DNA of 64,000 bases, from positions 1 to 64,000 of IMG/VR virus record IMGVR_UViG_3300020452_000320; one strand, given 5' to 3'. Source of the stretch: a virus. The notes beneath the pieces are model-generated. The model had not been told where the DNA came from. It saw only the letters and a list, made by a program, of their open reading frames with translations, and made no database searches. The position numbers were made by a program, and so were the translations under genes. This document shows positions 11,369 to 14,964 of the stretch, piece by piece; positions within the stretch are counted from its first letter, which is position 1, and every line of letters begins with the position of its first letter.

Positions 11369-11773
11369 CTAATCTAGTTTTTTCTTCCCTATATTATACT
11401 TTGTTTCCAATGTCCATTCATGTTTTTCTTTAAAAGAAATAACTTTGATTTGTGACAATGGTGCTTTTGGTTCACTATCACCAATTATTTCAACCAAACC
11501 CCAATCACTTAAAAGAGATGCAATAGAGTTTCGTCTAGATACATCATTCTCTGAAATGTTTGTACCTTTACCATCAAGTGCAAATAGTTCTTTAAAATGC
11601 ACTATAAAATATCTACCTTGTTTGTGAAGTATATGACATGATTGATATAGTTTTCTCTCTTTACGAGATGCAACACCAATCCTAGATAATGTTTCACGAA
11701 CCTTTAGAAAGTCATCTGGTTCTTTTAGTTTTACTTCTAGCATCTTATCTTGATGCCATTCAATATTGTTCAT
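11369..11773 (-). CDS. regA: RegA translational repressor
   Basis: A 134-residue homologue of T4 RegA (122 aa), which represses translation of early phage mRNAs by binding their initiation regions. The family signature is clear: EPDDFLKVRETLSRIG, YQSCHILHKQGRYFIVHFKE (residues 43-62) and the ENDVSRRNSIASLLSDWGL stretch. It overlaps gp62 by 5 nt; in T4 regA also lies beside gp62. Probable targets are initiation sites of the surrounding replication genes. Confidence 0.95.
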   Translation of the reverse strand: MNNIEWHQDKMLEVKLKEPDDFLKVRETLSRIGVASRKERKLYQSCHILHKQGRYFIVHFKELFALDGKGTNISENDVSRRNSIASLLSDWGLVEIIGDSEPKAPLSQIKVISFKEKHEWTLETKYNIGKKKLD

Positions 11774-12159
11774 TTTCTTCCACCTTTACTCAAACTATTC
11801 TTGATAGTTTTTATCTGGTCATTACTAAGTATCTGAAGAGCAACTTTAGCCTTTTCATTACTATAACCATAATATTCTTTTATAAACTCCAAGTCTTTTA
11901 TTTTACTACCTCGTACCCAAGGCGCAAACCTATTTTTAGGTCTAATAGTATTTAGTAAAAAATCATATTGTAGTTTATTTTCAAGGTGATGACGCATATT
12001 GATTTCATTCACAAACATAATTGTATCATTAAAGGGTGCAATACACTTATTAATGATATAAGGTGAATACTTCTTTTCCCACATAGGATCATCTGAATCC
12101 ATCAGATTTTCCTTTGTTTGATTAATACTTTTTAGATACTCTTTAAGTTCATAACTCAT
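11770..12159 (-). CDS. 62: Clamp loader small subunit (gp62)
   Basis: The 129-residue protein lies between gp44 and RegA, as in T4, and has the compact gp62 pattern: YELKEYLKSIN at the start, KYSPYIINKCIAPFNDTIMF, then LLNTIRPKNRFAPWVRGSK. T4 gp62 is about 187 aa, so this version is shorter, as in other marine T4-like phages. With gp44 it forms the clamp loader that opens and loads the gp45 clamp. It overlaps both neighbours by 4-5 nt. Confidence 0.9.
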   Translation of the reverse strand: MSYELKEYLKSINQTKENLMDSDDPMWEKKYSPYIINKCIAPFNDTIMFVNEINMRHHLENKLQYDFLLNTIRPKNRFAPWVRGSKIKDLEFIKEYYGYSNEKAKVALQILSNDQIKTIKNSLSKGGRK

Positions 12160-12362
12160 TCTTTTATACCCATACGTTCCAAGTATTGTGGATATAAATC
12201 TGGATTTCCAGTGCCGCCAGTACCATCTGCTCCAAAATTACATCTTGCAACAATCAATAGAAACAGTATACTTCCATAAGCTATATATTTACTAAATTTA
12301 ATAAATCCAACATACGCTTCTTCTGCTTGTTTCTGTGCAACTTCTTTTACATCATTACTCAT
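12156..12362 (-). CDS. Small single-span membrane protein
   Basis: A 68-residue protein with a charged N-terminal helix, one hydrophobic stretch at about 28-43 (YIAYGSILFLLIVARC) and a polar glycine-rich C-terminal part (GTGGTGNPDLYPQYLERM). The N-terminus lacks a signal-peptide layout, so a membrane-anchored protein is more likely. Its ATG overlaps the gp44 stop (ATGA) and its end overlaps the gp62 start, so it is firmly embedded in the clamp-loader operon. The function is unknown. Confidence 0.75.
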   Translation of the reverse strand: MSNDVKEVAQKQAEEAYVGFIKFSKYIAYGSILFLLIVARCNFGADGTGGTGNPDLYPQYLERMGIKE

Positions 12363-13297
12363 TTGAACCTCACTTGTGACATTATCTCAATCATAAATGC
12401 AAGCATATTAATCTCTTGATCTGCAACAAAGGCTGACTTGTAAGAATAATCTGCAACTGCAAGAACCATATGTGGAACTGTATTGGGATCAATTTCATCA
12501 TATAATGTATCATAAACTTTTCGATACATTCTTGATGGATCATTATCCAGATTATTTGCAACCCATTTACGTATGGATTTAAAATCTTTATCTTTTAGAA
12601 AAGATACCAGATCTCTCATGTTTGTTTCTGATATGTTTACTAGAATACCAGAATCAATTGTTCCAGATGCAGAATATCTTTGTAGTTCATTTAGAACTCT
12701 TCTCCAATCTGGAAAATATTTTTCAACAACACCAGCAACAGCCTTTGGTTCAAACTGAACATTCTCTTGTGTCAGAATAGTAGTAACTCTTTTAAAGAAC
12801 TCATTAGCAAGTATTGGTTTTTGAGATTTTGGAATACGAAATTCGATTCCAGAACATCTACTGTGTAGTGGTTCTATAATACGATTCTTAAAGTTACAAG
12901 TAAGAATAAATCCACAATTTTTATGAAACTCTTCTATAAACCCACGTAAAGCAGGTTGAGTTGATTGTGGATTTAGATAGTCAGCCTCATCTAGAATTAC
13001 GAACTTTCTTTTACCATCCATAGAAACAGTTGAGGCAAAGTTTTTGATTTTATTCCTAAGAACATCAATACCAGACTCTTCAGAACCATTTATCATCATG
13101 TAGGTTGCATCTAGTTCTTTCAACATTGCTTTTGCAATTGTTGTTTTCCCTACACCAGGCCCACCAGACAATAGTAAATTGGGAACATGACCCTCATTTA
13201 CAAATGTTTGAAAAGTTGTTTTAAGATCATCTGTAAGAATACAATCACTTATCTTGGATGGACGATACTTCTCCACCCACAAAATCACATCATTCAT
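12359..13297 (-). CDS. 44: Clamp loader ATPase subunit (gp44)
   Basis: A 312-residue AAA+ protein of the RFC/gp44 family. Walker A is GGPGVGKT at 45-52; Walker B is VILDEADYL at about 104-112; the sensor 1 region is FILTCNFKNRI, followed by PLHSRCSGIEF, where the SRC motif supplies the arginine finger. The ATP-driven gp44/gp62 complex loads gp45 onto primer-template. AGGAG lies 7 nt before the ATG at 13297. It follows a 27-aa peptide gene after gp45. Confidence 0.95.
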   Translation of the reverse strand: MNDVILWVEKYRPSKISDCILTDDLKTTFQTFVNEGHVPNLLLSGGPGVGKTTIAKAMLKELDATYMMINGSEESGIDVLRNKIKNFASTVSMDGKRKFVILDEADYLNPQSTQPALRGFIEEFHKNCGFILTCNFKNRIIEPLHSRCSGIEFRIPKSQKPILANEFFKRVTTILTQENVQFEPKAVAGVVEKYFPDWRRVLNELQRYSASGTIDSGILVNISETNMRDLVSFLKDKDFKSIRKWVANNLDNDPSRMYRKVYDTLYDEIDPNTVPHMVLAVADYSYKSAFVADQEINMLAFMIEIMSQVRFK

Positions 13298-13312: not shown

Positions 13313-13396
13313 TTAAAATAAACTAACAGTAACAGTTACTAATGTCAATACAATAATTGCAACTAACAATAGTATAACTGGAAATTTATTAAGCAT
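13313..13396 (-). CDS. 27-aa hydrophobic micropeptide between gp45 and gp44
   Basis: A short ORF begins with an ATG overlapping the gp45 stop (TAATG at 13398-13394) and ends with TAA at 13313, 15 nt before gp44. It encodes a five-residue head (MLNKF) followed by almost only V, I, L, T and A, a single membrane span. The TAATG coupling is the same device used at 318, 24170 and 30269 between real genes, which supports translation. No homologue is known to me. A weak promoter-like TTGACA lies inside the ORF at 13348-13343 with a poor -10. Confidence 0.5.
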   Translation of the reverse strand: MLNKFPVILLLVAIIVLTLVTVTVSLF

Positions 13397-14055
13397 TAGG
13401 AGGCCTCAAGGGCGATAAAATATTCTACATCTTTCGATATGTTTTTGAAATGTGATATTCCTTTGTTGGAAACTTGTACGTTATAGTCACCACTTAGAAG
13501 TTTTAGATTTTCAACTTTGAAAAAGTGTGAAAAAGTACTTGATGAATTTTCACCAACCTTCATACTAAAATCATTTGATGTATCATTCTTTCGATCTGTT
13601 ACAACAAGATTAACATCACCACCAGCAGTACCTTTTACTTCAACATCTGGTGTACCAAGAACAGCTGATGCTTTCATAATTTGATTAAAAGTATCTTGTG
13701 TAAATGTAAACTCAACATCTACAGAAGGCATAGTTATATCTGTCTTTGGTGATGTAACAATAGATGGATCACTAAAGAAATAGTTAAGAGAACTTCCACC
13801 ACCCTCTTCATCTAACTTTACACTTTTATCTGAAAAGTTAAGTGATGGTTTTTTAAATAAAGAAAGTGCAGATAAAAATTCATTCAAATCATATATCGCA
13901 AATTCATTTTGAAACGTGTCTGGTATTGTTGCTTTTGCAACAATGTTTTTCATTGCAGACATTGTTCCAATCACATTACCACTATTAACCATTAGATTTT
14001 GATTAATAGAGGAGAAGTTCTTTAAAACTTCTTTTGTATCATTACTAAGATTCAT
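13396..14055 (-). CDS. 45: DNA polymerase sliding clamp (gp45)
   Basis: A 219-residue gp45-type clamp, near the length of T4 gp45 (228 aa). It encircles DNA, tethers gp43 and, in T4, activates late transcription through gp55/gp33. The N-terminus (LSNDTKEVLKNFSSINQNLM) and the PTK-like beta-rich body fit the family, and its position before gp44/gp62/RegA is exactly the T4 order. The start at 14055 is chosen because AGGAG sits 5 nt upstream; a GTG two codons earlier has poor spacing. Confidence 0.93.
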   Translation of the reverse strand: MNLSNDTKEVLKNFSSINQNLMVNSGNVIGTMSAMKNIVAKATIPDTFQNEFAIYDLNEFLSALSLFKKPSLNFSDKSVKLDEEGGGSSLNYFFSDPSIVTSPKTDITMPSVDVEFTFTQDTFNQIMKASAVLGTPDVEVKGTAGGDVNLVVTDRKNDTSNDFSMKVGENSSSTFSHFFKVENLKLLSGDYNVQVSNKGISHFKNISKDVEYFIALEAS

Positions 14056-14057
14056 GT

Positions 14058-14333
14058 TCACTCCTTATATTTGTCATGATTATAGATTGCCATTATACCA
14101 TAATGTACTATTTTAAACAAGTCATTTCTATTTCGTCCTTGTTTTTTTCCATATCGTTGTGCGTATTTCATCACATTTCCGATACAAAAACCTTCGCCAT
14201 GGCCGCTGTCCATGATAAACTCTGATGCCTGAAATTTATTTTGGGAATAATGAGCTTCATATGTTTTATCTACATATGTTTTTAATTCATTAAGAATTTG
14301 TTCTTCATTATAACAATATTGTGGTTTTTTCAT
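14058..14333 (-). CDS. DUF3310-like protein
   Basis: A 91-residue protein starting MKKPQYCYNEEQIL. The C-terminal half contains GFCIGNVMKYAQRYGKKQG followed by NDLFKIVHYGIMAIY, matching the GNviKY-R-gKK-g--DL-Ka--Y pattern of DUF3310 proteins found in many phages. The start at 14333 is preceded by GGAGAG about 9 nt upstream. It is the first gene of the gp45-gp44-gp62-RegA operon, right after a strong sigma70 promoter, so it should be expressed early. The molecular function of the family is not established. Confidence 0.75.
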   Translation of the reverse strand: MKKPQYCYNEEQILNELKTYVDKTYEAHYSQNKFQASEFIMDSGHGEGFCIGNVMKYAQRYGKKQGRNRNDLFKIVHYGIMAIYNHDKYKE

Positions 14334-14358: not shown

Positions 14359-14387
14359 ACTATAACATAAAAAAGTGCCTCTGTCAA
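14359..14387 (-). promoter_or_regulatory. Sigma70 promoter for the clamp/clamp-loader operon
   Basis: A perfect TTGACA (14387-14382), exactly 17 nt, then TATAGT (14364-14359) on the minus strand. The -35 box forms the loop and one side of the hsp20 terminator hairpin, so the terminator and the promoter share DNA. Transcription would start near 14352, giving a leader of about 20 nt with GGAGAG before the ATG at 14333. Confidence 0.8.
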
Positions 14388-14397
14388 GAGGCACTTT
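14366..14397 (-). terminator. Intrinsic terminator after hsp20
   Basis: On the minus strand AAAGTGCCTCT, a short TGAC loop and AGAGGCACTTT form an 11-bp stem followed by a T run (TTTTTT). It starts 11 nt after the hsp20 stop and ends hsp20 transcription. Its loop contains the -35 element of the next promoter. Confidence 0.85.
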
Positions 14398-14407
14398 CAG
14401 ATAACAA

Positions 14408-14854
14408 TTACTTGATATCAATTAAACGAGGTTTCTTTTCCTCTGGTATTACTCTTTCTAATTTAATAGAAAGCATACCATCTTTTAATGAACCACCATT
14501 TACAACAATATCATCTGCAAGAGTAAATTTTCTTGTAAAGTTTCTTGTTGCAATACCACGATAAAGTTTATCATCTTCATCTTTTGATTCTTTAATAGAT
14601 TTAATTGATAAGACGCCTTCTGCAATTTCTACCTCAATATCATCTTTACTATATCCAGCCAAGGCCATTTCAATAGTAAAGTTGTAGTCACCATCTTTTA
14701 TAATATTGTAAGGTGGAAAACCTGTTGATTCTGCTTGATGATTTGCATAATCCCACAATCTATCAAATTGTCGGTCAAATCCAACTGCATAAGGTGTTAA
14801 GTGATTTACGTCAAACGCTTGAAGTGCGTTTCTAAAAGTGCTTAAGTTTGTCAT
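14408..14854 (-). CDS. hsp20: Small heat-shock protein Hsp20 (IbpA-like)
   Basis: A 148-residue alpha-crystallin/Hsp20-family chaperone. The alpha-crystallin domain runs from about 50 to 140, with PPYNIIKDGDYNFTIEMALA, the G-L-like strand DGMLSIKLERV near the C-terminus and an IxI-like tail in PRLIDIK. Hsp20 genes are common in marine T4-like phages and are thought to protect folding proteins such as scaffold or capsid. It is monocistronic: it has its own promoter (14914-14945) and a terminator. The leader holds a hairpin candidate that hides the ribosome site (14861-14877). Confidence 0.93.
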   Translation of the reverse strand: MTNLSTFRNALQAFDVNHLTPYAVGFDRQFDRLWDYANHQAESTGFPPYNIIKDGDYNFTIEMALAGYSKDDIEVEIAEGVLSIKSIKESKDEDDKLYRGIATRNFTRKFTLADDIVVNGGSLKDGMLSIKLERVIPEEKKPRLIDIK

Positions 14855-14860
14855 TGCTAT

Positions 14861-14877
14861 CTCCTTTATTAAGCAAG
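14861..14877 (-). promoter_or_regulatory. Candidate ROSE-like RNA thermometer on hsp20
   Basis: In the leader, CUUGCUU (14877-14871), an AAUA loop and AAGGAG (14866-14861) can pair with the G of UUGCU bulged: C-G, U-A, U-G, [G], C-G, U-A, U-A. AAGGAG is the ribosome-binding site, 6 nt before the ATG at 14854. The UUGCU-against-SD layout with a bulged G is the hallmark of ROSE elements that control bacterial small heat-shock genes. Further upstream, GATAGA/TCTATC can form a second hairpin. No folding or melting has been computed. Confidence 0.5.
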
Positions 14878-14913
14878 ATTAATGCGATAGACCTATAAAG
14901 CATCTATCACTAT

Positions 14914-14945
14914 TATTTATATAGGGATTAACTTAGAAAAGTCAA
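14914..14945 (-). promoter_or_regulatory. Mixed sigma70/late promoter for hsp20
   Basis: The minus strand carries TTGACT (14945-14940) and, 16-18 nt further, TATATAAATA (14923-14914). The same stretch thus offers a sigma70 -35/-10 pair and the exact late octamer TATAAATA (14921-14914), so hsp20 could be transcribed both early and late. Confidence 0.65.
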
Positions 14946-14964
14946 CCCCTATACAAAACTTTTT

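Follow-up and report, generated by a model that had tools for sequence, protein, structure and literature searches.

The hsp20 locus and its leader

The window, a 64,000-nt stretch of viral DNA, carries on its minus strand a gene for a small heat-shock protein, hsp20, flanked by a 473-aa gene upstream and by replication genes coding for a sliding clamp and clamp loader downstream (Table 1). T4-like phages show the same arrangement of hsp20 and replication genes. The 110-nt gap located 5′ of hsp20 contains, in transcript order, an inverted repeat, a late-promoter element, hairpin I, hairpin II and the start codon. The putative late promoter TATAAATA matches the T4-type -10 element and would place the transcript start near the base of hairpin I.

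ROSE elements are bacterial RNA thermometers. The original prediction had placed a ROSE-like element in front of this phage hsp20, in which CUUGCUU pairs with the AAGGAG ribosome site across a 4-nt loop with exactly one bulged G. This pairing is present on the minus strand in CTTGCTTAATAAAGGAG (14877..14861), and its core consists of C-G, U-A and U.G pairs, bulged G14874, and C-G, U-A and U-A pairs closing the loop AAUA. The location and the pairing were thus correctly given and the structure was understated, as a U-A and an A-U pair lengthen the helix outward, giving 8 bp, and an upstream hairpin had been missed. The short segment takes hairpin II as its minimum-free-energy fold, and a single copy of the pattern TCTTGCTTN{2,8}AGGAGA is present in the 64-kb window, where 0.01 would be expected. 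When sequences were shuffled with the Shine-Dalgarno end fixed, hairpin II was recovered in 1.5% of the shuffles and both hairpins in 0.02%. Because the folding energy of the hairpin II segment is ordinary for its composition (z -0.29), the case for the element rests on conservation and comparison rather than on energy. Hairpin I is stable (-9.7 kcal/mol, z -4.24) and shares the device of hairpin II, a bulged G between two stems. Two alternative pairings, of UUGCU with an AGCAA close to the start codon and of 14855-14869 with 14895-14909, were set aside as they seemed peculiar to the window or to few leaders.

ROSE-like elements and their U(U/C)GCU motif have been defined previously (PMC3669281, PMC11342760). 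In the window, UUGCU is paired with the AGGA of the Shine-Dalgarno sequence, one bulged G (G14874) interrupts this helix, a stable and covarying 5′ hairpin (hairpin I) lies upstream, and the gene that follows is a small heat-shock gene according to its PF00011 and phrog_432 matches. The motif, the bulged G, the paired Shine-Dalgarno sequence and the upstream hairpin, together with the conservation described below, bear out the proposed assignment to the ROSE-like class.

The inverted repeat that overlaps the late-promoter element is strong (-23.5 kcal/mol, z -7.55) and is a candidate operator, processing site or terminator. Similar repeats with another arm sequence were obtained by folding three related loci (L005, L013 and L067), and one can be seen in Mosig on inspection; such a repeat is common to many relatives among those whose upstream sequence was read. 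A terminator-like 12-bp stem-loop with a T tail (14371-14398, minus strand) directly follows the hsp20 stop codon.

Table 1. Features of the hsp20 locus and related sites (positions in the window unless a contig is named)
Feature	Position	Strand	Description
Clamp loader	12359-13297 and 11770-12159		downstream of hsp20
Sliding clamp	13396-14061		downstream of hsp20
hsp20 coding sequence	14408..14854	minus	148 aa small heat-shock protein; PF00011, phrog_432
R1 covariance model match	14852..14907	minus	63.0 bits, E 1.5e-12; sole window match at E<=1
Hairpin II	14859..14879	minus	AUCUU-G-CUU-AAUA-AAG-GAGAU; 8 bp, single bulged G (14874); Shine-Dalgarno side paired
Shine-Dalgarno AAGGAG	14861..14866	minus	6 nt upstream of ATG at 14854
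Anti-Shine-Dalgarno arm CUUGCUU	14871..14877	minus	includes ROSE motif UUGCU; read from the sequence
Hairpin I	14884..14910	minus	GUGAUAGAU-G-CU-UUAU-AG-GUCUAUCGC; 11 bp, one bulged G (14901)
T4-type late-promoter -10 element TATAAATA	14914..14921	minus	sequence match; just 5′ of hairpin I
19-nt inverted repeat	14916..14957	.	overlaps late-promoter element
Element before small proteins	L207:4155, L309:1598, L331:1467, L342:966, L367:2297, L370:6260, L291:3321		other contigs

Conservation, covariation and gene specificity

The 80 related IMG/VR loci retrieved by protein search and 16 phage-collection records provided 74 distinct leaders. Both hairpins can be drawn in 74/74 (73 by script, one by eye) and the script finds the bulged G in 73/74, counting leaders with C-G in place of U.G; it takes the best pairing per leader, which flatters these counts, and shuffles serve as the control. 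The ACG-2014a leader, whose hairpin II is reduced to 5 bp, was recognized by eye. We built a covariance model, named R1, from 13 related viral leaders, leaving out the window and the isolates. Besides its match in the window (Table 1), R1 detects 15 of the 16 isolate leaders at E<=0.05 and the remaining one at 0.11; elsewhere, three other places were matched at E 0.04-0.15 in 243 kb. Ten further isolates were inspected, nine of which have both hairpins, and R1 matches eight. S-CREM2 has both hairpins by eye despite the lack of an R1 match, and S-TIM5, also unmatched, keeps a hairpin II whose stem is rewritten as CCAC/GUGG, together with an upstream stem devoid of the GCC...GGG core. In S-SRM01 (L430), the annotated hsp20 start at position 550 is probably wrong because it falls within hairpin I; the element implies a start near 601.

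Compensatory changes accompany the conservation of the pairing in these leaders and in the further isolates; a loss of the pairing in relatives, which would have told against the original prediction, is not seen. In hairpin I, all four Watson-Crick pairs are used at several positions and covariation is found at 6 of the 8 modelled pairs. Variation in hairpin II consists of the U.G to C-G change in cyanophages and HTVC103P (UCGC for UUGC) and of outer pairs that differ on both sides among relatives; its core pairs are mostly invariant. Since the Shine-Dalgarno side is fixed, covariation within close relatives rests mainly on hairpin I. Overall, 96% of the alignment cells are paired and 119 are double-changed versus 27 in shuffles, in an alignment that was fitted to R1 and with which a MAFFT alignment not fitted to R1 agrees. 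The covariation signal is absent when the partners are slid. When all leaders are aligned with plain MAFFT, hairpin I and the loop-length variants end up in the wrong place. Alignment A4 was made from locus references.

Among the genes sampled on viral contigs, hairpin II is restricted to hsp20, which it precedes in 88/90 cases versus 0/227 for other Shine-Dalgarno genes. In motif scans of IMG/VR, hsp20 follows 101 of 123 matches listed for the UUGC form, and for the UCGC form 105 of 120. The other matches listed are mostly located before dnaK (in the first scan); small proteins account for a few and an AhpC-like gene for one, and several leftover matches are broken off at contig ends with the gene unnamed.

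ROSE-like elements are found before both dnaK and hsp20 on L216 (5596-5654 and 7577-7634) and L252 (10557-10611 and 8591-8642, minus strand), two contigs that also carry clpS. The same organization, dnaK then hsp20 with an element before each, occurs on L274, L280, L289, L296 and L297; the identity of the two genes was established by Pfam for L216 and L252 and was deduced from spacing and the DnaK start for the others, and the viral nature of these IMG/VR contigs was checked for part of them. The element also precedes genes for small proteins of ~60-85 aa that match no Pfam family and have a phasin-like look (Table 1). Finally, a minus-strand match on L305 (2468-2495) places a UCGC-type motif before an AhpC/TSA-family gene, with a weak R1 score of 16.6 bits.

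Relation to Rfam families and to bacterial leaders

At the window site, ROSE (RF00435) ranks 1st of 4227 Rfam families and matches over its full length (E 0.042; 25.5 bits versus a cut-off of 45). Full-length matches at the same place in relatives were obtained with RF02523 (ROSE_3) in L031 and Melnitz-2 (34.9 and 34.1 bits; cut-offs 43 and 43) and with RF01832 (ROSE_2) in S-N03 (26.2 bits versus a cut-off of 65). No score for RF00435, RF01832 or RF02523 in the window or its relatives reaches the Rfam gathering threshold, the best relative scoring 34.9 versus 43. Because its scores are below the gathering cut-offs, we do not file the element as a member of these three families as now modelled, and it would be missed at Rfam standard thresholds. 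The leader of phage hsp20 is nevertheless genuinely ROSE-like and conserved, and it is unannotated in the records examined.

The cellular Hsp20 proteins closest to that of the window come from marine Alphaproteobacteria (70% identity), SAR11 and SAR324. The element precedes hsp20 in almost all of these bacterial loci, including SAR11, and in SAR324 loci hairpin II alone is retained under R1. Whole bacterial genomes contain exactly one R1 match, at hsp20, in 5/6 cases. In the Hsp20 tree, the window belongs to a phage clade inside which a chromosomal alphaproteobacterial group is nested, Mosig and HTVC008M nest with SAR11 and HIMB114, and cyanophages form a separate group with long branches, yet still carry the leader. 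Bacterial class A proteins are closer to cyanophage Hsp20 than host proteins are, and cyanobacterial small heat-shock proteins represent a different lineage (PMC3827213). Given the tree placement and the leaders shared with bacteria, the gene has probably travelled with its leader on more than one occasion, and for the clade of the window the tree fits transfer in either direction. Phages probably took hsp20 with its leader from marine proteobacteria more than once in their history. The leaders of SAR11 and of marine alphaproteobacterial hsp20 have the same two hairpins before the same gene as those of the phages, from which they differ in being chromosomal.

Function of the leader and comparison with known systems

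We consider it quite probable that the phage hsp20 leader is a ROSE-like translational thermosensor that came with the gene and was maintained by selection. Hairpin I, as a stable bulged-G stem, probably aids the correct folding of the leader. Hairpin II, in which U(U/C)GCU is paired to the Shine-Dalgarno sequence in a helix weakened by U.G and the bulged G, would close the ribosome site in the cold; warming, or another destabilizing signal, would open hairpin II and allow Hsp20 to be translated. The helix is predicted to weaken with warming: isolated hairpin II has -8.4 kcal/mol at 5 C, -3.0 at 37 C and -2.1 at 42 C. The instability at all temperatures that would have told against the original prediction is not seen. 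Because the pairing is conserved and the helix is not unstable throughout, the ROSE-like structural class is well supported.

Opening with temperature in the infected cell is suggested by folding models. Between 15 and 37 C, the predicted opening of the Shine-Dalgarno sequence is the largest among the 42 Shine-Dalgarno genes of the window, and its value at 37 C hinges on the transcript start (0.19 for a 53-nt leader, 0.77 for a 57-nt leader). For most relatives, modelling to 42 C predicts modest opening, with median unpaired values of 0.03 to 0.22. As a control, we folded the E. coli ibpA leader, a known ROSE element, and found that in ViennaRNA it either does not open or changes in the opposite direction; thermal folding was dropped as a decisive test because this control fails to open. 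The open ocean undergoes little rapid temperature change, which counts against thermosensing.

A protein-controlled switch would account for retention of the leader in a thermally steady ocean. According to this explanation, which we regard as possible if somewhat unlikely, free Hsp20 binds its own leader to repress translation and is titrated off by misfolded or unassembled proteins during infection, temperature playing a minor role. For E. coli IbpA to repress itself through the ibpA leader, both R93 and an aromatic side chain at residue 34 are required (PMC10474464). The equivalent residues of the window Hsp20 are R104 and F46; the aromatic residue is present in all aligned phage Hsp20s, and the arginine, which E. 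coli IbpB lacks, is present in all but that of Ettore (Lys). However, these residues may persist for chaperone function or by common descent, and autoregulation is compatible with thermosensing as one leader can do both. We more tentatively suggest, as a speculative extension, that the phage ROSE leader is a proteostasis sensor more than a thermometer: Hsp20 would repress its own late mRNA, unfolded or unassembled proteins would release it, and dnaK and hsp20 would form a ROSE regulon in large phages. If true, chaperone supply would track assembly load. Thermosensing is the most likely function of the leader, self-repression being a likely addition or alternative.

The occurrence of the same element in the likely donor bacteria and the nesting of pelagiphage Hsp20s with those of SAR11 and HIMB114 would also fit an inert remnant of bacterial gene capture, unresponsive in the phage. 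This is improbable, as the sequence of hairpin I has widely changed across phages with its pairing retained, and cyanophages on long Hsp20 branches keep a leader that would decay if useless. Finally, TTGCTTAA could be read as a MotA-type middle-promoter box (TGCTTtA), or the match could be a by-product of having a strong Shine-Dalgarno sequence, with a pairing that is coincidental. TGCTTA is indeed similar to the T4 MotA consensus (quoted in PMC9004378), but cyanophage CTCGCTT destroys the box and preserves the pairing (U.G to C-G), S-TIM5 and S-CREM2 rewrite both arms, and the same element is found on bacterial chromosomes. Coincidence or by-product is further contradicted by the lack of the hairpin in the 227 other Shine-Dalgarno genes. 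We rejected the MotA-box reading on these grounds and give this whole explanation almost no credence.

A conserved putative translational switch on hsp20, a core gene of T4-like cyanophages (PMC3037559), implies that the timing or dose of Hsp20 matters. A proteobacterial-type candidate RNA regulator is now placed in phages of cyanobacteria, which suggests that phages acquire regulatory RNA together with chaperone genes. We found no report of a ROSE element or RNA thermometer associated with phage hsp20 in the open-access literature, which is weak evidence of absence, and papers on cyanophage small heat-shock proteins make no mention of such a thermometer. As far as could be checked, the kind of element is already known, and its setting and breadth are new. 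Known phage RNA thermometers are lambda cIII, the one earlier case named in PMC10586365, and the SPbeta blyA fourU described in the same study. Like the hsp20 element, both are structures in phage mRNA leaders, and in these two ribosome access depends on temperature; they differ in belonging to other structural classes, with no ROSE element, and in regulating lysis-lysogeny or autolysin genes instead of a chaperone gene. Among bacterial systems, the short two-hairpin thermometers of Pseudomonas ibpA (PMC3669281) resemble the phage leader in their stable hairpin I, in the U(U/C)GCU/Shine-Dalgarno pairing and in the small heat-shock gene that follows, whereas the phage leader, known here from its sequence, is A+T-rich and has its own bulged G between the stems of hairpin I.
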